From NCBI GenBank assembly GCA_012799135.1, contig JAAZLW010000061.1:1-38163 (forward strand): a stretch of 38,163 bases of DNA, in the 5' to 3' direction. Each line of letters begins with the position of its first letter. The first letter of the stretch is position 1. Below the pieces are notes generated by a model. The model searched no databases, was not told the origin of the DNA, and worked only from the letters and a program-made list of their open reading frames with translations. The position numbers and the translations under genes are program-made. This DNA is from Bacillota bacterium. GTDB taxonomy: Bacteria > Bacillota > Limnochordia > DTU087. Positions 2,942-27,038 of this stretch are shown piece by piece.

Positions 2942-4486
2942 ATGCCAGGCCATCCATCACCACTAACGTCAGTGCTGAAAGGGAAAACGGATCTGAAAGC
3001 ATCCAAACAGTTCTGGTCAGTTCTTGCAGCCGGTTTGGGTTTACTTCTAGTTAGGCTATGGCCAATCCAATATGAAGGGGTGTGGGCAACAGAATATGGT
3101 GGTTGGCAACACTTAGTGCTGGAGTCTCTTACTGTCAGTATGGCCTTCCGCGTGTTCTATATCGGGTGGCATGTCGGCATAAGAAGACAAACACTGCGGG
3201 GTTTGACTTATAGCGTCACTTTCCTGTCGATTGGAGTTTTGGGTCTCTTGCATATGCTCTCTCTACCTAATATGCCCTCCTTTATCACCCCCAACAGTCT
3301 CAATAAAGCAGTGTTGTTCAGCTACACATCACATCTGGTCAGTAGTATTTGTTTACTTCGTGCTTCGTTTTTGCCGGTTAGACGGATAAGCCGTCTAACT
3401 CGCACTTGTTATCTAGCAGCTAGCCTTTTGCTTACCTCACTAGCCACCTTGATTATCCTAGTTTACGAAAACTACCTTCCCCAAGTCTTCGTTGGGTCAA
3501 AGCCGGTACGAAGAACCACCACACTGATCGCATTAGTTGCCGCCGGGTTGTCACTCTTGTTATTCGTGCGTTTTAATGTTACATATAGAAAAGCCCACAA
3601 GGAAAGCTATCGATATATTAAGGCGGGGGGTGGTATGTGGGTCTTGAGCCAAGTGAGTTTTCTTTGTCTCGGCAATGGATTCCATACCTACAATCTCATT
3701 GGTCATATCTACAGAGCGGTAGCCTATGGGTACATATGCCACGGGGTATTGTCACTGACTGTGCAGCGCCCATATGATGCGCTAGATCGGGCCCGAGAGC
3801 AGCTCCGTCGGACTCGGCAATATCGTACTTTGGGGCGGATAGTGGGACGTCTCGCTCATGAGCTGAAGAACCCCTTGGCCGCTATTCGGGCCTCAGCCCA
3901 GCTCTCCACTATCCTCGATGACCAGACTGAGCGGGGAAGAGTCAACCAACGGATTCAAGCAGAGGTGGATCGGCTTAGCGACCTCATTACTATGACCCTG
4001 GAGGTTGGCTGGGAGAGGCGGCAGATTTGGGATCTTGTCCATCTGGATCAGATCGCGGAGGAAGTGTGTTCGCTTTGGGAAGCAGAATTGCGCATACTAA
4101 GTATTACGAGCAAGGTATGTGTGCAAGATGAGCTTCCGCCCATTCAAGGTAATCCTAAGCTACTGCAGCGGGCCCTGACAAATCTGGTACTAAACGCAGT
4201 AGAGGCCATGCCGGGGGGAGGAGAGCTAGGCATTTCGATTTACCAAGAGGCAGAGGGGTCATCCATTAGGGTGGAAATATCAGATACCGGGCCAGGAATT
4301 CCTGATGAGCTGAGAGACCGGCTTTTCCGGGAATTTACTACAACAAAACCTCACGGAACGGGAATGGGACTCATGATTACACACCAGATTATAACTGAGA
4401 TCCATCGGGGGCAGATCTGGTTTAGTACTGTCCTAGGAGAAGGTACCAGCTTTTTCATAAGGTTGCCGGTGACCCAGACAAAGTAG
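2942..4486 (+). CDS. Sensor histidine kinase with N-terminal multi-TM (MASE3-like) sensor domain
   Basis: AAGGAGG RBS just upstream of ATG 2942; about 7 hydrophobic segments with 'FLSIGVLGLLHMLSLPNMPSF' and 'LPQVFVGSKP'; HisKA 'LAHELKNPLAAIRASAQL'; HATPase 'NLVLNAVEAMP', 'DTGPGIP', 'GTGMGLMI'. Confidence 0.88.
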   Translation: MPGHPSPLTSVLKGKTDLKASKQFWSVLAAGLGLLLVRLWPIQYEGVWATEYGGWQHLVLESLTVSMAFRVFYIGWHVGIRRQTLRGLTYSVTFLSIGVLGLLHMLSLPNMPSFITPNSLNKAVLFSYTSHLVSSICLLRASFLPVRRISRLTRTCYLAASLLLTSLATLIILVYENYLPQVFVGSKPVRRTTTLIALVAAGLSLLLFVRFNVTYRKAHKESYRYIKAGGGMWVLSQVSFLCLGNGFHTYNLIGHIYRAVAYGYICHGVLSLTVQRPYDALDRAREQLRRTRQYRTLGRIVGRLAHELKNPLAAIRASAQLSTILDDQTERGRVNQRIQAEVDRLSDLITMTLEVGWERRQIWDLVHLDQIAEEVCSLWEAELRILSITSKVCVQDELPPIQGNPKLLQRALTNLVLNAVEAMPGGGELGISIYQEAEGSSIRVEISDTGPGIPDELRDRLFREFTTTKPHGTGMGLMITHQIITEIHRGQIWFSTVLGEGTSFFIRLPVTQTK

Positions 4487-4599: not shown

Positions 4600-5130
4600 A
4601 TGACAAAAGACATTGCTGATGCAATTAGAGATCGGCGGAGTATCAGGCGTTTTACCTCTAGGGAGATACCCGGTGCCACACTCTCCCGATTATTGGAAGC
4701 AGCTTGTATGGCACCAAGCGCGGGGAATCGGCAGCCCTGGTTTTTCTATGTGGTAAGAAATCCAGATATCCGCCAGGACTTGGCCAAGGCTGCTTTTGGC
4801 CAAAGCTTCCTAGCAGAAGCACCGGTGAATATCGTCGTATGTGCCAAGCCGGAACGGAGTTCCGCTCGTTACGGTGAGCGGGGGGCAAAGCTTTATTGCC
4901 TCCAGGACACGGCTGCGGCTGTCCAGAATTTGCTGCTCATGGCAGAAGGACTCGGCCTGGCTACGTGTTGGGTCGGAGCCTTTGATGAACAGGAGGTCAG
5001 TCGAGCCCTTGACATACCAAAGGCGCGTAGACCGGTGGCGATTATCCCAGTAGGCTACAGCAATCTGGCCAGACCGCCGGAATCCCCTACCCGTCGAGCC
5101 CTCACCGAGGTTGCGAAGATGGTGGATTAG
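4600..5130 (+). CDS. Nitroreductase family protein
   Basis: 'AIRDRRSIRRFTSREIP', 'ACMAPSAGNRQPWFFYVV', 'QDTAAAVQNLLLMAEGLGLATCWVGAFDEQEV'. Confidence 0.93.
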   Translation: MTKDIADAIRDRRSIRRFTSREIPGATLSRLLEAACMAPSAGNRQPWFFYVVRNPDIRQDLAKAAFGQSFLAEAPVNIVVCAKPERSSARYGERGAKLYCLQDTAAAVQNLLLMAEGLGLATCWVGAFDEQEVSRALDIPKARRPVAIIPVGYSNLARPPESPTRRALTEVAKMVD

Positions 5131-5231: not shown

Positions 5232-6596
5232 ATGACAGGTAGAGAGTTAGTGCTGGCGGCTCTTCAGCGGCAAGCAACTCCACGGGTGCCTTGGGTCCCT
5301 TTCACTGGGGTACATATTGGCAGTCTCAGGGGAGTCACTGCTCAGGAACTGCTGCAAAGTGCCAGCCTGTTGGTGGCCTGTGGTGAAGAAGCCAACGAGC
5401 GCTATCAACCAGATGGCCAGCCGGTGATTTTCGACCTACAGGTAGAAGCGGAAATTCTCGGCTGTAAGCTGCAGTGGGCCAAGGATGCGCCTCCGGCAGT
5501 TGTATCTCACCCCCTAGCCGCAGGATACGATGGTTTGATGGATTTGCCCAAACCAAGGCCCAAAGATGGGAGGCTACCGGTAATTCTCGATGCCATGCGG
5601 GCTCTTAAACAAAGGATCGGGCATGATACGGCCCTTTACGGGTTGGTGGTAGGGCCTTTCACCCTAGCTCTGCACTTGCGTGGGACTAATCTCTTTCTCG
5701 ACATGTTTGACCAACCGGAGGCAGTGAAGGAATTAATGTATTTTTGCCGCCAGGTGACTGAGGTAATGGCCGATCACTATATCGATGCGGGTATGGATGT
5801 AATCGCGGTAGTAGATCCCATGATCTCACAGATATCAGCTGAGCACTTTCAGCAATTTGTCAGCGGAGATGCCACCCACATCTTTGATTTCATCCGAGGA
5901 AAGAACGCCTACTCGTCCTTCTTCGTCTGTGGCAACGCAACACCGGTACTGGAGGTTATGGCCCAGTGTGGTCCTGATGGTCTTTCAGTAGATGAAAACG
6001 TGGATATGGTCTTTGCAAAAGAGATTGCCGATCGGCATGACATATCCTATGGTGGCAATATTCCCCTTACCACTGTCATGCTGCATGGGGATCAGGCAGA
6101 TAATATGCAGGCAGCTTTGAAGTTAATCGACAGCTGCAGCGGACCGGGCTTTATCCTATCGCCGGGTTGTGACATGCCTTTTAACGTGAGACCGGGAAAC
6201 GTCAGTGCCATCACTCTAGCGGTATTCGATCCAGAGAAAGCCCGGGTTTTCGTACAGACCCATCAGAGGCCCGCGGATTTGGCCGAGACCCAAGTCAAGC
6301 TGCCCGATTATGATCATTTGCCGAGGCCCCTAATCGAAGTGATCACTTTGGATTCTGCGACCTGTCCACCCTGTAAGTACATGGTTGATGCCACTCGGCA
6401 GGTGGCTAAGCTGTTTGCCGGTAAGGTAGACTGGGTGGAATACAAGATTACGGAGAAGGAAAATGTGGTCCGGATGCAGCGCTTGGGAGTTACCAATATC
6501 CCCACTATTGTGATCAATGGCAATCCGACTTTTGTTTCCTGCATTCCCGATCTATCTACTTACAAACGGGAAATCGAAAAGGTGCTGCAATCATGA
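5232..6596 (+). CDS. Uroporphyrinogen decarboxylase-type (MtaA/MtbA-like) methyltransferase fused to a C-terminal thioredoxin-like domain
   Basis: URO-D-like N-terminal domain ('TGRELVLAALQRQATPRVPWVPF', 'FFVCGNATPVL', 'GGNIPLTTVMLHG'); C-terminal about 85 aa 'EVITLDSATCPPCKYMVDATRQVAK...GVTNIPTIVINGN' is a CPPC thioredoxin-like fold. Confidence 0.85.
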   Translation: MTGRELVLAALQRQATPRVPWVPFTGVHIGSLRGVTAQELLQSASLLVACGEEANERYQPDGQPVIFDLQVEAEILGCKLQWAKDAPPAVVSHPLAAGYDGLMDLPKPRPKDGRLPVILDAMRALKQRIGHDTALYGLVVGPFTLALHLRGTNLFLDMFDQPEAVKELMYFCRQVTEVMADHYIDAGMDVIAVVDPMISQISAEHFQQFVSGDATHIFDFIRGKNAYSSFFVCGNATPVLEVMAQCGPDGLSVDENVDMVFAKEIADRHDISYGGNIPLTTVMLHGDQADNMQAALKLIDSCSGPGFILSPGCDMPFNVRPGNVSAITLAVFDPEKARVFVQTHQRPADLAETQVKLPDYDHLPRPLIEVITLDSATCPPCKYMVDATRQVAKLFAGKVDWVEYKITEKENVVRMQRLGVTNIPTIVINGNPTFVSCIPDLSTYKREIEKVLQS

Positions 6597-7486
6597 TCAA
6601 TGTTATTTTGCTGACCGGCTTCCTCGGCAGTGGCAAGACAACATGCCTAAATCAGCTTCTACCCAGGCTAGCCCGGGCCAATAAGCGGGTAGCAGTGGTG
6701 ATGAATGAGTTCGGTAGTGTAGGTGTTGATGGTAAGTTAATCGATGGTGTGGTTCGGCCGGTGGAGCTGCAGAATGGTTCTATTTTCTGTGTTTGTATCA
6801 GAGACAACTTTCTGGCGGCCATGGCCAAACTAGCTGAGGAGCTGAAGCCGGAAATCGTGGTGATCGAAGCTACCGGCGTGGCAGATCCTTTTGAGATGGG
6901 AGACTTTCTAGCCTACCCGGGTCTACTGGGTATTTATCGGTTGTATCGGACAGTGACATTGATCGATGCCATTAATTTCCCAAAAGTGATTCAGACTCTG
7001 CGGGCGGCCCGGGCTCAGGCTGAGGCCGCTGATGTTTTCGTGATCACCAAGACCGACTTGGTTGATTGGGAGGGGTCAGTGGATCTAGGTAATCTCCTGG
7101 TGCAGCTCAATCCCACTGCTTTACAGATAGTAGCTCCTTTCTGCCGGTTGTCTGGCACCGAGTGGGAGCTTGTGCTGGGACTCACGCAGGCAGTAGCAGC
7201 GGGCAGGCAGTATTCTGTTAGGCAGCCCGCCCGGGATCCGATAGTGTCTGTCACCTTATCAATCGGCCCCTTTGCCGATATTACTTCTGCCCGGGAGGCA
7301 ATAGCCAGGGCCTTGCCCCCCAATACGCTGAGGGCCAAAGGTTTTATTGATATCAGCGGTAGACCGCACTTATTTCAATATACCATGGGGAAGGCTGAGG
7401 TAACGGATGTCAACGGTAGGGTGGAAAAGACGGGGCAGTTAGTTGTCATTGGGCTAAACCTTCGGCGTGACCAGATTCCGCTATGA
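6593..7486 (+). CDS. G3E (CobW/COG0523) family P-loop GTPase
   Basis: Walker A 'GFLGSGKTT', 'VVMNEFGSVGVDG', 'EATGVADP', 'TKTDLVD'; ATGA overlap with the upstream stop codon. Confidence 0.9.
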   Translation: MINVILLTGFLGSGKTTCLNQLLPRLARANKRVAVVMNEFGSVGVDGKLIDGVVRPVELQNGSIFCVCIRDNFLAAMAKLAEELKPEIVVIEATGVADPFEMGDFLAYPGLLGIYRLYRTVTLIDAINFPKVIQTLRAARAQAEAADVFVITKTDLVDWEGSVDLGNLLVQLNPTALQIVAPFCRLSGTEWELVLGLTQAVAAGRQYSVRQPARDPIVSVTLSIGPFADITSAREAIARALPPNTLRAKGFIDISGRPHLFQYTMGKAEVTDVNGRVEKTGQLVVIGLNLRRDQIPL

Positions 7487-15666: not shown

Positions 15667-15838
15667 CAAATATATCGTTAAATATTCTCGGGTTTTATCC
15701 TTTGACATAGCGGGGAGAGGTCTATGCAACGGGCGTAGATAGGTCTCCCATTTTGTGCTGGAGCGGTTTTGAGCCAAGTAGTGAGGCTTTTTTCGTATAT
15801 GAAGTATGTCAACAGATTGCGAAGGAGAGGTGAATGCT

Positions 15839-18800
15839 TTGGCTGTGGTGACACAAGTGGGCAAGAGGCAGCAACGCACTAGTTTCGGCAGAATCAAGGA
15901 AGTCCAAGCCATACCTAATCTCCTTGATATTCAGCGGCGACCCTATGATTGGTTTCTCGCGGAGGGATTGCTGGAAACCTTCCGGGACATCTCGCCGATT
16001 GAGAGCTTTACCGGTAATCTGGTGCTGGAATTCATTAGTCACTTTCTAGGTGATCCTGAGTATTCTGTCGAGGAATGCAAGGATAGAGATATGACCTATG
16101 CTGCTCCCATGCGAGTCCGAGCACGCCTGGTCAATAGAAAAACAGGTGAAGTCAAAGAACAAGAAGTGTTCCTAGGTGATTTTCCCCTAATGACTGAACA
16201 GGGGACCTTTATCATCAATGGAGCGGAACGGGTGATCGTTAGCCAATTGGTACGTTCACCTGGGGTATACTACGGGGAAGATCGGCATTCCAGTGGTAAA
16301 CAGCTATATACTGCTAACTTAATCCCTGATCGTGGTGCCTGGCTGGAGTTCGAAACAGATGCCAATGATGTAGCCTATGTTAGAATTGACCGAACCCGGA
16401 AACTACCGGTGACTGTACTGATCAGAGCCATCGGATACGGTAGTGATGAGCAGTTGACAAAGCTGTTTCATGGAGGTATCGGTTTAGGCCCCACTATAGA
16501 TAAAGACAGGACTAAGTCCGAGACAGAAGCGTTAATTGAGATCCATAGGAGGTTGCGACCCGGCGAACCACCCACAGAAGAGTCGGCTAGAAGCCTTTTT
16601 GAGACCCTGTTCTTCGATAGCAGACGCTATGATCTGGCATCAGTGGGTAGATACAAACTAAACAAGAAACTCCGTATTACAGAGCGTCTGACGGGAAGGG
16701 TTACAACCCGGCCGATCGCTCATCCCAAGACAGGCGAGTTGATTGTGGAAGCCGGCGTTAAGCTGGATCGGCGAGTGGCTGAGAAAGTGATGGCTGCCAA
16801 AGTGGAAGCCGTATATGTGAAAGGCAAAGGGGATCAGGAAATCAAGATCCTGGGAAATGGGCAACCCCATGAGAGTGAACGGACACTTACACCCCAAGAC
16901 CTTGTGGCTGCTGTCAACTATTTCTTCAATCTAATGGATGGTGTGGGTAGTGTCGATGATATCGATCACCTGGGTAATCGGCGTATAAAGAATGTAGGAG
17001 AGCTGCTACAGAACCAATTTCGCATCGGATTGTCCCGGATGGCCAGGGTTGTAAGGGAGCGTATGACGATTCAAGATGAAGATGTGATCACTCCCAAAGC
17101 ACTGATCAACAATAGACCGGTTGTTGCCGCCATCAGGCAATTCTTTGGCAGCAGTCAGTTATCGCAGTTTATGGACCAGACTAATCCTCTGGCAGAGTTG
17201 ACCCATAAGCGACGGCTTTCGGCCTTAGGACCTGGAGGCCTTTCCCGGCAGAGGGCAGGGTTTGAGGTAAGGGATGTACATCACTCACACTATGGTCGTA
17301 TGTGCCCCATCGAAACACCCGAAGGACCAAGCATCGGCCTGATCGGTTCTCTTTGTACCTATGCCCGTCTGAACGAATATGGCTTTATCGAGACTCCGTA
17401 CCGCACGGTGGAGAACGGCCGGATTACCGATGAAGTGCAGTATCTAACCGCTGATGAAGAGGATAATTATGTGGTTGCTCAAGCCAACGAGCCACTGGAT
17501 GACGAGGGACGTTTTGTGCATCCTCGGGTTACAGTACGCTATATGGACAGAATTCTCCTGTCACCCTCTGAGCAAGTAGATTTCATGGATGTTTCTCCAA
17601 AGCAGTTGGTAAGTGTTACTACTAGCCTGATCCCGTTTTTGGAGAATGACGATGCATCTAGGGCTCTAATGGGCTCTAACATGCAGCGCCAGGCAGTGCC
17701 ACTTTTGCGAGCCGAAGCCCCCTATGTGGGAACAGGCGTGGAATATAAGGCGGCGGTAGACTCTGGAGTACTAGTTACTGCAAAAAACCCCGGCAAGGTA
17801 GAGCGTGTTACTGCGGAAGAGATTGTGGTGAGAACCGGTGGTGGAGCCAGAGATATCTATCGTCTACGCAAATTTGAGCGGTCTAACCAAGGTACTTGTA
17901 TCAACCAGCGTCCACTTGTAAGTAAGGGTATGTATGTTGAGCGTGGCGAGGTGATCGCCGATGGCCCTGCTACCAAAGATGGCGAATTGGCTTTGGGTCG
18001 GAATACTTTAGTAGCCTTTATGCCTTGGGAAGGGTATAACTACGAAGATGCCATTTTGATCAATGAAACCCTAGTCAAGGAAGACGTTTTCACGTCAATT
18101 CATATTGAGGAGTATGAAGCTCAGGCTCGGGATACCAAGCTCGGTGTGGAAGAGATCACGCGGGATATTCCCAATCTAGGAGAAGATGCTCTTAAGGATC
18201 TTGACGCTACCGGAGTTATTCGTATCGGTGTGGAGGTAAGGCCGGGAGATATCCTTGTCGGTAAAGTCACTCCCAAAGGAGAGACTGAACTAACTGCAGA
18301 GGAACGACTCTTAAGGGCCATCTTCGGGCAGAAAGCTCGCGAAGTCAGAGACACCTCTTTGCGAGTACCCCACGGCAAGGGCGGTACAGTAGTGGATGTG
18401 AAGGTGTTTAGCCGGGAAAATGGAGATAAGCTCCAGCCTGGTGTTGATCGACTGGTACGAGTCTATCTGGCTCAGAAACGGAAGATCTCAGAAGGGGACA
18501 AGATGGCGGGGCGTCACGGTAACAAGGGTGTGATTGCCAAGATTCTGCCAGAGGAGGATATGCCCTTCATGCCAGATGGCCGCTCGGTGGACATTGTACT
18601 CAATCCTCTGGGAGTGCCATCGAGAATGAACATCGGTCAGATACTGGAGACTCATCTAGGCTGGGCGGCGGCGGCATTGGGGATCAAGGTAGCTACTCCC
18701 GTTTTTGATGGTGCCCGGGAGGATGACATAATCTCATTCCTAAAGCAGGCTGGGTTACCTTCTACCGGCAAGACGACTTTATATGATGGTCGCACCGGTG

Positions 18801-19288
18801 AACCTTTCGATAACGAGATCACTGTAGGTTATATATACATGCTCAAACTAACTCATCTCGTCGATGACAAGATCCATGCTCGTTCCACCGGGCCTTACTC
18901 TTTAGTAACCCAACAGCCCTTGGGCGGAAAGGCTCAGTTCGGTGGTCAGCGTTTTGGTGAGATGGAAGTCTGGGCCCTAGAGGCTTACGGGGCAGCCCAT
19001 ACCTTGCAGGAGATGCTGACTGTCAAGTCTGATGATGTCATCGGACGCGTAAAGGCCTATGAGGCCATTGTTAAAGGTGAGAACATACCTGAGCCCGGTG
19101 TGCCTGAATCCTTTAGAGTACTGATCAAGGAATTGCAGAGCATTGGCCTTGATGTTCGAGTCTTTTCTGAAGAGGAAGAAGTCCAGCTAAAAGAAGTCGA
19201 CGAGGATGTGAGTAAGATGGCCAAGGAACTTGGCATAGACATTCCCCAAAGAGATGTGGGTAAGCCGAATGAGGAAGGGTCAGGGTAA
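15839..19288 (+). CDS. rpoB: DNA-directed RNA polymerase subunit beta
   Basis: Full-length about 1150 aa RpoB: '[32 protein letters not shown]', '[20 protein letters not shown]', '[30 protein letters not shown]', '[28 protein letters not shown]'. Likely TTG start at 15839 after aaggagaggtg; the ORF track starts at 15806. Confidence 0.98.
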
Positions 19289-19391: not shown

Positions 19392-19468
19392 CCGCCCGTA
19401 GCTCAGCTGGATAGAGTGTCTGACTTCGAATCAGAAAGCCGCAGGTTCGAGTCCTGCCGGGCGGGCCA
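19392..19468 (+). tRNA. tRNA-Arg, anticodon TCG, CCA encoded
   Basis: Cloverleaf: acceptor CCGCCCG/CGGGCGG, D stem GCTC/GAGT, anticodon stem TCTGA/TCAGA with loop CTTCGAA, T stem GCAGG/CCTGC with TTCGAGT loop, G73 + CCA. Confidence 0.95.
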
Positions 19469-20142: not shown

Positions 20143-20382
20143 TTCCGCTTGATGCCTTCAGGCGCGTGAATTCTTCCCTAGGCTTGGTTCATCTGGGAAA
20201 GTTTACCAGGGGATCGGGGCGAAGGCTGTTGAGTCAAAAGGCGAGATCAAGAAGACTCCTTTGACAGATAAGAAAGCGAAGAAGGAATTCGTCAAGTTAC
20301 AAGAGAAAGTTTAGATAGTCATAATTAAGCAAGCGCGATGTGATTTGTGTGAATGCTTGGCATTGGAATGGAGGGGTATTTG

Positions 20383-21915
20383 TTGGGTAGGAATGTCCTT
20401 CAGGCAAGAGGAATATCGAAGAGCTTTTCTGGGACAGTTGCTTTGGACGGTGTAGATTTTGAGCTGAATGAAGGAGAAGTCCATGCCCTAGTTGGTGAGA
20501 ATGGCGCCGGAAAATCGACTCTGATTAAGATACTCAGCGGAATTCTCAGGCCGGATGAAGGAGAAATTTATCTCGATGGCAATCCAGCAAGTATTTCAGA
20601 TCCACTAACTGCCCAGCGACTCGGTATTGCAGCCATCTATCAGGAGCCAGCTGTATTTCCCGAACTCAGTATTGCTGAGAATGTTTTCATGGGACACCAT
20701 GAGATACACAGGATGACCCGTCGGATTGACTGGCGAAAGACCTATGAGGAAACAGAAAGACTGCTCGATTCGCTGGATGTGAAACTGGATCCGAAGACCA
20801 AGGTGAAGTTCTTGAGTGCTGCAGAGCAGTAGCTGGTCGAAATCGTTAAAGCTTTGTCTTTTAACTCGACGATCCTGATCATGGATGAGCCCACCTCCTC
20901 GCTTACCCTCAAGGAGATCGAAAGGCTCTTTACTACCATAGAGCGCCTGAAAGAGCAAGGGACATCGATCGTCTTCATCTCTCACAGACTCGAAGAAGCA
21001 TTTGAGATAGCAGATCGGATCACTGTTCTACGCGATGGACGCTACATTGGTACCAAAGACATCTACGGGGATGAAGTCAGTGTAGACGACATCATCAGGA
21101 TGATGGTAGGGCGGGAACTAACCGAGCTTTTCCCGAAAAAGCAGGTTAAGATAGGGTCGCCGGTTCTCAGAGTCGACCATCTAGCCAAAGGAAGCCAACT
21201 GTATGACATAAACTTCAGACTGAACAAAGGAGAGATCCTGGGGTTCTTCGGACTGGTCGGGGCCGGCAGAACAGAATTGGCTCGGGTGATCTTTGGGCTG
21301 GAGAAAGCGGATAGGGGCAGCATTTACCTAGATGAACAGGAAGTCAAGATCGATAACCCTTGGACTGCCTTGGAACACGGTATAGCCTACGTTCCGGAAG
21401 ACAGGCAGGCCCAGGGTCTTGTTTTGCCTATGAGCATAACCCACAACATAACCCTTCCAGTGGTTGATAAGTTCTCGACAATGAGCTGGATAAACGAGTA
21501 CAAGGAAACGGCGGAAGCAAAAAGGTACGCGGATATACTGCAAGTCAAGGCCTACGGGCTGTGGGAACAGGTCGCGAAGCTCTCTGGAGGCAATCAGCAA
21601 AAGGTGGTACTAGCCAAGTGGCTGGCTACTAATCCCAAGATCCTGATCTTGGATGAGCCAACGAGAGGCATAGATGTAGGTGCAAAAGTTGCCGTGCATG
21701 AGTTCGTGGGCAAGCTGGTCTCCCGCGGAGTAGCCATCATCATGATATCATCCGAACTCCCGGAAGTACTGGCGATGAGCGACCGGGTAATGGTGATGTT
21801 CGAAGGGAGGATCGTCGACGAGTTTAGCAGAGAGGATGCAACCCAAGACAGGGTACTATCTGCGGCAGTGGGGATGCGTGCCGAAAACAAACAGATAGCT
21901 GGGGTGAGGACATGA
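20383..21915 (+). pseudogene. RhaT-like rhamnose/sugar ABC transporter ATPase (two ABC domains), interrupted by one in-frame TAG
   Basis: 'GENGAGKSTLIKILSG', 'KFLSAAEQ-(TAG 20830-20832)-LVEIVKALSFNSTILIMDEPTSSL'; the frame continues intact through the second domain ('KLSGGNQQKVVLAKWLATNPKILILDEPTRGIDVGAK'). Confidence 0.88.
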
Positions 21916-25208: not shown

Positions 25209-25350
25209 GAATATACGAAGTAGCAAAATGCCTCTGGTGGCTTCGACAAGAAAATGGTATACTATGAAAGTGTGAAAAACTGCGTTTGGTGCGAGGGTGG
25301 GATGGGCTTTAGGTTCGATTCACAGTCGGTAGGTTACGTGCTTATCAATA

Positions 25351-25419
25351 TGACTAGGTGATGAAGCTCACCCGGACTTGACGTCCAGACCGCTTTGCAG
25401 CTAATGGCTTCTGCGATAC
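25351..25419 (+). ncRNA. Fluoride riboswitch aptamer (crcB motif)
   Basis: GGTGA-TGAAGC-TCACC (25357-25372), accessory hairpin GGAC/GTCC (25374-25386), ACCGCTTTGCAGCTAATGGCTTCTGC; pseudoknot GAAGC (25363-25367) with GCTTC (25407-25411). Same layout as the remembered crcB pattern GGCGATGGAGTTCGCC...ACGCTGCTTAGCTAATGACTCCTAC. Confidence 0.88.
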
Positions 25420-25443
25420 TAAGGTGTCGTGGAGGCCTTTTTT
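25406..25443 (+). terminator. Riboswitch expression-platform terminator
   Basis: GGCTTCTGCGATAC (25406-25419) - TAAG - GTGTCGTGGAGGCC (25424-25437), 14-bp stem with G-T wobbles, then TTTTTT; the 5' arm overlaps the aptamer pseudoknot strand. Confidence 0.85.
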
Positions 25444-25460
25444 CTTGAGGAGGCGATTTC

Positions 25461-27038
25461 ATGGTAGCAGACATTATGCTAGGGGCTGTTATAGTCATAA
25501 TCACAGGATTCCTGGCTGGTCACCTGGTGGAGAGACTGGGTATTCCTCGGCTGTTAGGAATGCTGATCGTTGGAGTACTTATAGGACCCCATGCGCTGGG
25601 CTGGATAAGTGGCGATCTCTTGAGCTTGAGCAATGAGATTCGGATGCTTGCCTTGACTGTAATCTTGCTCAAGGCTGGTCTGGGATTGGACAAAAAGAAG
25701 ATCCTGGCGCAAGGCAATACGGCTATACTGCTAGGGATCATACCATGCACTATGGAAGCAGCGGTTTTGGCCATTTCCACTCATTATCTCTTGGGCTGGG
25801 ATTGGACGATCTCTTGGCTGCTGGGTTGGATTGTCTGTGCGGAGTCACCGGCTGTTCTCGTCCCCATGATGTTACGCCTTAAGTCCGAAGGTTGGGGTGC
25901 CAAGAGTGGTTTGCCTGATCTTGTACTAGCAGGAGGGGCCTTGAGTGATGTTGTCGCGATTACTGTCTTTGGGATCGTATTGGATACGGCGACTATGGGA
26001 TCAACTCCGGGATTAGCCACTCTAGGAGCGATCCCCCTTAGTGTAGCCGGGGGTCTGGTAGCCGGCCTCGTTGCAGGTAAACTCCTCACTAGAGTGCTCT
26101 ATGATGTCGGAATTACTCGGAACGCCACTCAGGATCTGCTCATCGCCCTAACTGCAGCGGTAGCACTAGTCATGGGCGGCGACAAGGTCGGGTATTCAGG
26201 CTACCTGGCGGCAATGATGATGGGCTTCACTATTGTGGAGTCCAGTGAGGTATTGGCCAGACGTATTCGGGCGGAACTAGATCGTGTGTGGGTAATCGCC
26301 GAGATCTTCCTATTCGTGCTGATTGGAGCAGAAGTCAATGTCTCGGTTGTTAGGCAGGCAGGGGGTAGCGGGATCGCCCTATTGGTTTTGGGCCTTTTGC
26401 TAGGCCGTATGCCCGGGGTCTGGATATCTACAGCCAGATCTACTCTATCCAGTAGGGAGAAGCTCTTCATGAGTGTGGGGTATTTGGCTAAAGCTACGGT
26501 ACAAGCCGCTATTGGTGCCATACCTTTGTCTATGGGCATCCCCCATGGGGAAGTGATTCTAGCCTTTGCTGTTCTTGCCATTATTGTGACTGCTCCTGTG
26601 GGAGCCATTGGGACTAGTCTTTTGGCCCCTAGGCTATTACAACGTGGTGATGTTGATCCTACAAAAGTGACTGTTGAGAAGAAGTACCGCTTTCTAGTGG
26701 CCTTGGATCAAGAAGGTACTGCCATGCGAGCCCTTGAGGAAGCTGCTCAGCTCGCCAGGCAGCTAGATGCTACCCTCATGATCTTGCATGTTGACGAAAG
26801 CGGCGGAGCAGCTCCATTCGTAAGCATGCTTTACGATAGCAACCGCTACCTAATCAGCGATGTAGAACACGATCTCGTCATAGGCAGTGGTAATCCTGTA
26901 GAGGGCATCATCCAGTTAGCAATAAGCGGCGATGTAGATATGATTTTCATGGGAAAAGGTACACCGTCTACTCTTGCCAGTGACATAACTCCCAAGGTGC
27001 TAGAGCAATCACCGGTGCCGGTGATCGTTGTATCGTAG
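25461..27038 (+). CDS. CPA2-type cation:proton antiporter with C-terminal universal stress protein domain
   Basis: Na+/H+-exchanger-like membrane region 'GHLVERLGIPRLLGMLIVGVLIGPHALGW'; C-terminal Usp domain 'RFLVALDQEGTAMRALEEAAQLARQLDATLMILHVDE...VPVIVVS'; gaggagg RBS. Confidence 0.9.
   Translation: MVADIMLGAVIVIITGFLAGHLVERLGIPRLLGMLIVGVLIGPHALGWISGDLLSLSNEIRMLALTVILLKAGLGLDKKKILAQGNTAILLGIIPCTMEAAVLAISTHYLLGWDWTISWLLGWIVCAESPAVLVPMMLRLKSEGWGAKSGLPDLVLAGGALSDVVAITVFGIVLDTATMGSTPGLATLGAIPLSVAGGLVAGLVAGKLLTRVLYDVGITRNATQDLLIALTAAVALVMGGDKVGYSGYLAAMMMGFTIVESSEVLARRIRAELDRVWVIAEIFLFVLIGAEVNVSVVRQAGGSGIALLVLGLLLGRMPGVWISTARSTLSSREKLFMSVGYLAKATVQAAIGAIPLSMGIPHGEVILAFAVLAIIVTAPVGAIGTSLLAPRLLQRGDVDPTKVTVEKKYRFLVALDQEGTAMRALEEAAQLARQLDATLMILHVDESGGAAPFVSMLYDSNRYLISDVEHDLVIGSGNPVEGIIQLAISGDVDMIFMGKGTPSTLASDITPKVLEQSPVPVIVVS

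Follow-up and report, generated by a model that had tools for sequence, protein, structure and literature searches.

An NHA2-like antiporter with a Usp domain behind a predicted fluoride riboswitch, from a clade not found together with CrcB in Bacillota genomes

Why an antiporter gene should stand behind a fluoride riboswitch is the question raised by a locus in a 38,163-nucleotide stretch of Bacillota DNA (the window), in which a predicted antiporter carrying a universal-stress (Usp) domain follows such an element. Known bacterial fluoride exporters belong to two families, and Na+/H+ antiporters are the second most common class of gene behind fluoride riboswitches. F- is not directly removable by a Na+/H+ exchanger. 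As far as the account of Baker et al. 2012 cited in PMC11139923 goes, the pairing of riboswitch and antiporter is already known, with the gene directly behind the switch, as it is here. The window system differs from the antiporters described there in its fused Usp domain, in a Ser-Asp motif in place of Asp-Asp, and in a measured exclusion of CrcB. Antiporters bearing Usp domains have also been described (PMC8214093), and the fluoride operon of Enterobacter cloacae FRM places a Usp protein, encoded by uspA, under a fluoride riboswitch as in the window; there, however, the Usp protein has its own gene within a crcB operon, whereas in the window Usp is fused to the antiporter (PMC5533749). In the literature read, the role of the antiporter is explained as pH homeostasis only. 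A prior report of CrcB exclusion, or of a riboswitch-linked Ser-Asp fusion in two phyla, was not found in the literature searched, with most subscription journals outside its coverage.

The element upstream of the antiporter gene is almost certainly a fluoride riboswitch. When the window was searched against all of Rfam, the RF01734 model matched on the plus strand (E=1.8e-6) above its gathering score of 34 bits (Table 1), and a search of the 3.1-Mb genome found this copy as its sole fluoride riboswitch. An earlier reading of this DNA, made from sequence only, had described a crcB-motif layout with a GGTGA/TCACC stem, a GAAGC:GCTTC pseudoknot and an inserted GGAC/GTCC hairpin. The model match bears out the layout, and all three elements can be read directly in the sequence, with GAAGC at 25363-25367 pairing with the GCTTC strand. 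The hairpin and pseudoknot are common to this copy and known crcB RNAs; one extra small hairpin sets it apart from the RF01734 class, the rest being ordinary. The score exceeds the gathering score by only 1.9 bits, with relatives reaching up to 50 bits, as might be expected if the match were decayed or due to chance and the antiporter gene constitutive, which we consider very improbable. Against this, the core motifs are all intact in the window copy, and the near relatives G012, G013 and G016 retain them, as well as the terminator and the start of the antiporter gene downstream. Both paired elements also covary. The hairpin occurs as GGTGA/TCACC, GGCGA/TCGCC and GGGAA/TTCTCC among relatives, and the pseudoknot as GAAGC:GCTTC, GGAGC:GCTCC, GAAGT:ACTTC and GGAGT:ACTCC across related antiporter loci, with 5/5 pairs in all 39 readable sites, a figure partly constrained by the regular expression used to read those sites. 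A chance match was rejected on this conservation and covariation.

The aptamer runs into an intrinsic terminator, its stem (25406-25437) formed by 14 pairs and followed by T6, with a predicted fold of -23.1 kcal/mol (z = -6.3; 0/200 shuffles equally good). The terminator scan is expected to return 1.8 terminator-like sites by chance in the region, so the case for this terminator is carried by its fold and its conservation; G012 retains most of the pairs despite several base changes. Many crcB RNAs likewise have a terminator that overlaps the 3' portion of the aptamer (PMC2864571). The pseudoknot strand had been claimed to double as the 5' arm of the terminator, and this proved correct: the two structures both use 25407-25411 and thus are mutually exclusive, as both the overlap and the folding of the expression platform indicate. 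Transcriptional fluoride-ON control of the antiporter gene is a well-supported prediction from this arrangement, and we infer that the window RNA responds to fluoride. In the absence of fluoride, the terminator would form from the 3' portion of the aptamer and the transcript would stop ahead of the antiporter gene, while with fluoride-Mg2+ bound GCTTC would be kept in the pseudoknot and polymerase would read through into the gene. The ON logic originally proposed is borne out. The spacing before the ATG had been given as 18 nt; 17 bases were counted between the end of T6 (25443) and the ATG (25461).

Table 1 Features of the riboswitch-antiporter locus, in window coordinates
Feature	Position	Strand	Basis or remark
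Fluoride riboswitch aptamer (RF01734)	25348..25420	+	35.9 bits; single copy found in genome
Aptamer hairpin, GGTGA 25357-25361 / TCACC 25368-25372	25357..25372	+	Read from sequence; loop holds GAAGC
Small inserted hairpin GGAC/GTCC	25374..25386	+	Sequence and RF01734 match; in G012 stem conserved, loop variable
Intrinsic terminator, 14-bp stem, loop of 4, T6	25406..25443	+	Terminator scan and folding
3' pseudoknot strand GCTTC, common to terminator 5' arm	25407..25411	+	Sequence; covariation
Ribosome-binding site GAGGAGG, outside terminator stem	25447..25453	+	Read from sequence
NHA2-like CPA2 antiporter with C-terminal Usp domain, 525 aa	25461..27038	+	Pfam, sequence and fold matches
Na_H_Exchanger domain PF00999, residues 16-386	25506..26618	+	144 bits, above cut-off
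Glu128 (AESPAV)	25842..25844	+	Val in NHA2 and nearly all unfused relatives
Ser162-Asp163 ion-site motif	25944..25949	+	Asp-Asp in NHA2 and every unfused relative covering the site
Usp domain PF00582, residues 410-524	26688..27032	+	50 bits, above cut-off

The gene product had been described as a CPA2 antiporter with a C-terminal Usp domain, and the Pfam matches agree, while neither the CrcB domain (PF02537) nor the CLC domain (PF00654) is among them. Among solved structures, NHA2 (SLC9B2) of human or bison comes nearest by sequence (E 1.8e-43), far ahead of archaeal NhaP structures at E 1e-8, and the predicted model (mean pLDDT 86.8) also matches NHA2 best by fold, with NhaP and NapA next. 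E99, D163, R316 and K344 align with NHA2 residues and are invariant in a 37-row clade alignment. Of these, E99 and R316 correspond to the Glu-Arg pair that forms a salt bridge specific to NHA2 (PMC8850199). Compared with NHA2 (PDB 7b4l, 7p1k), the window protein thus retains the Glu-Arg pair, the second Asp and the Lys, but is bacterial, has Ser for the first Asp and carries a Usp tail. The double aspartate (DD) of the NHA2-like ion site is absent in the window protein and in all Usp-fused copies. The Usp region is predicted as alternating strands and helices (pLDDT about 58-84). By reading, it contains neither the ATP-binding motif G-2x-G-9x-G(S/T), which is present in the cyanobacterial copy L151, nor the KdpD-type c-di-AMP motif (A/G/C)xSxSx2N(Y/F) (PMC8214093). 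Sensing of c-di-AMP or ATP through these known motifs was rejected for the window copy, where they are missing.

Close homologues of the antiporter domain within its own class (73 genomes) mostly stand directly behind riboswitches. A clade profile (A1) searched across 399 Bacillota genomes matched in 35 of them, from 31 genera and 21 families, and in 31 of the 35 a fluoride riboswitch lies directly upstream of the clade antiporter. Three of the other four are without a riboswitch, and the fourth (G276) has its gene close to the beginning of a contig and its riboswitch elsewhere. A riboswitch is present in 32/35 antiporter genomes versus 124/364 others (p=2e-11), and 30 of these 32 have one detected riboswitch. 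A riboswitch also lies upstream of the antiporter gene, an unfused Asp-Asp relative, in Clostridium sp. CF012. Two antiporter homologues with no detectable aptamer (L039, L040) still have a hairpin containing GCTTC and a T-run that resemble the terminator half of the switch, possibly decayed riboswitches. A 33% identical antiporter is also encoded at 5488-6666 of a 7.3-kb phage record from human faeces (MT837274.1, labelled Bacteriophage sp.).

The clade antiporter was not found together with CrcB. CrcB is absent from all 35 antiporter genomes but present in 163/364 of the other Bacillota genomes (p=4.7e-9), and among riboswitch-bearing genomes it occurs in 0/32 with the antiporter versus 85/124 without (p=8e-14). 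Nine of the 35 antiporter genomes are single-contig. Within the class of 73 genomes, none of those carrying close homologues has CrcB, and neither CrcB nor CLC was found in the genome of the window, which is 96% complete, in searches that detected CrcB in 10/14 and CLC in 12/14 control genomes. Among families with riboswitches, a CrcB genome occurs in 4/21 antiporter families versus 40/57 others (p=6e-5). Those four families (f30, f54, f77 and f114) include both antiporter genomes and CrcB genomes, never the two genes in one genome. The exclusion could partly reflect shared ancestry, which the family-level test lessens but does not remove. A general effect of CPA2 proteins was rejected, as genomes of the same class do carry other CPA2 paralogues alongside CrcB. 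No exclusion was found for CLC proteins as a whole (12/35 versus 141/364, p=0.7); most CLCs of the antiporter genomes are without the CLC-F signature, which is clear only in G077, a genome whose antiporter lacks a riboswitch, and ambiguous in G139. The clade antiporter is a protein unrelated to the CrcB/Fluc and CLC-F exporters but occupies the same riboswitch-controlled niche, and it appears to act as a substitute for the Fluc channel CrcB. A role in fluoride tolerance, which had been suggested for the window antiporter from its riboswitch, is strongly supported by these genome comparisons, and we consider it highly likely that the clade serves in fluoride defence, given both the riboswitch linkage and the CrcB exclusion.

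Within this clade, the antiporters fused to Usp make up a subfamily of their own. In Bacillota the fusion was found in the window copy, in G012 and in G095, which belongs to a different family; in G013 and G016 the antiporter copy is truncated where the contig ends. Widening the search around G095 for further Usp-fused members yielded G095 alone. In its contig (L118, contig C25, near 3390-3400) Usp lies in another frame a few codons from the conserved linker, a probable 1-nt indel that may be real or an assembly error. A tblastn search of plasmids returned seven cyanobacterial records with 97-99% query coverage including Usp, for example pAQ7 of Picosynechococcus PCC 7002, and the four cyanobacterial plasmid copies examined all have a fluoride riboswitch upstream (45-50 bits). 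Every Usp-fused copy examined stands behind a fluoride riboswitch. All fused copies have Ser-Asp at the ion site, versus Asp-Asp in the unfused clade members covering it, and most, with the exception of G095, also have Val128 replaced by Glu. In the tree the fused copies form a monophyletic group (support 100/100). Because the fusion and the ion-site change both map to the same branch, their association amounts to one linked event and not to repeated evidence. On a plasmid of Synechococcus NIES-970 (L152), a c-di-AMP riboswitch (60.5 bits, 4645-4808) is located just downstream of the fluoride-riboswitch antiporter.

How the clade would protect cells is a separate matter, as an exchanger replacing an exporter is odd unless the protein also moves fluoride or alters the pH gradient. 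The overall explanation that we think probable is a fluoride-ON switch controlling an NHA2-like clade that acts by cation/H+ exchange as the main riboswitch-controlled defence in bacteria lacking the Fluc channel CrcB. The induced antiporter would exchange cations (Na+, K+ or Li+) for H+, adjusting both the pH of the cytoplasm and the pH gradient; this would limit HF trapping and its damage, with Usp as a regulatory module of the antiporter; here we infer the direction and ions of transport as well as the role of Usp. Cation/H+ exchange as the chemistry of the clade is somewhat favoured, because the cation-site residues are conserved, but is less secure for the window copy than for the clade, as only one of the two Na+-binding aspartates of NHA2 remains in the window protein. 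The possibility that the clade antiporter moves fluoride itself, by F-/H+ exchange or HF symport, and represents an additional family of exporters next to Fluc/FEX and CLC-F, is held more tentatively. It would account for the complete absence of CrcB, for the single detected riboswitch in nearly all riboswitch-bearing antiporter genomes and for the near absence of a clear CLC-F signature, and a relative, Drosophila NHA1, has been proposed as an H+-Cl- cotransporter (PMC9174904). The conserved NHA2 cation-site aspartates, Glu-Arg pair and Lys of the clade argue against fluoride transport, however, as does the fact that all solved relatives found are cation/H+ exchangers. Extended to its full form, in which the riboswitch-linked clade is an unrecognised fluoride exporter family replacing Fluc in about 9% of the sampled Bacillota genomes, and the Usp-fused Ser-Asp subfamily of Bacillota and cyanobacterial plasmids a specialised variant whose ion site has been remodelled (Asp162 to Ser, and mostly Val128 to Glu), this idea is doubtful.

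An accessory role, in which the antiporter does no more than relieve general acid or ion stress, and CrcB is missing for phylogenetic reasons or because another, unknown exporter is present, appears unlikely. It agrees with pH homeostasis as the reason given for riboswitch-linked antiporters (PMC11139923), with a C. difficile riboswitch operon in which an NhaP-type antiporter follows CLC-F (PMC11477304), and with the presence of some CLC in about a third of the antiporter genomes. It does not readily explain why the CrcB exclusion holds at the family level, including the four families with both kinds of genome, or why other CPA2 paralogues of the class coexist with CrcB. The exclusion instead suggests that the antiporter is the main riboswitch-controlled defence in many bacteria, making the clade a good candidate for a means of fluoride survival that has received little study. 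As Picosynechococcus PCC 7002 is genetically tractable and carries the homologue SYNPCC7002_RS15580 on pAQ7, the role of the antiporter is directly testable.

No fluoride-related neighbours of the antiporter were seen among the genes examined in the window. A TIM-barrel gene follows 110 nt downstream, and on the upstream side lies a sugar ABC transporter with a binding protein that matches RhaS. A sugar ABC ATPase (20353-21915, plus strand) seems to be divided between two ORFs of 159 and 353 aa that correspond to the halves of one protein, as a frameshift would leave it. The window also contains the rpoB gene for the RNA polymerase beta subunit (15806-19288) and a tRNA-Arg (19392-19468).
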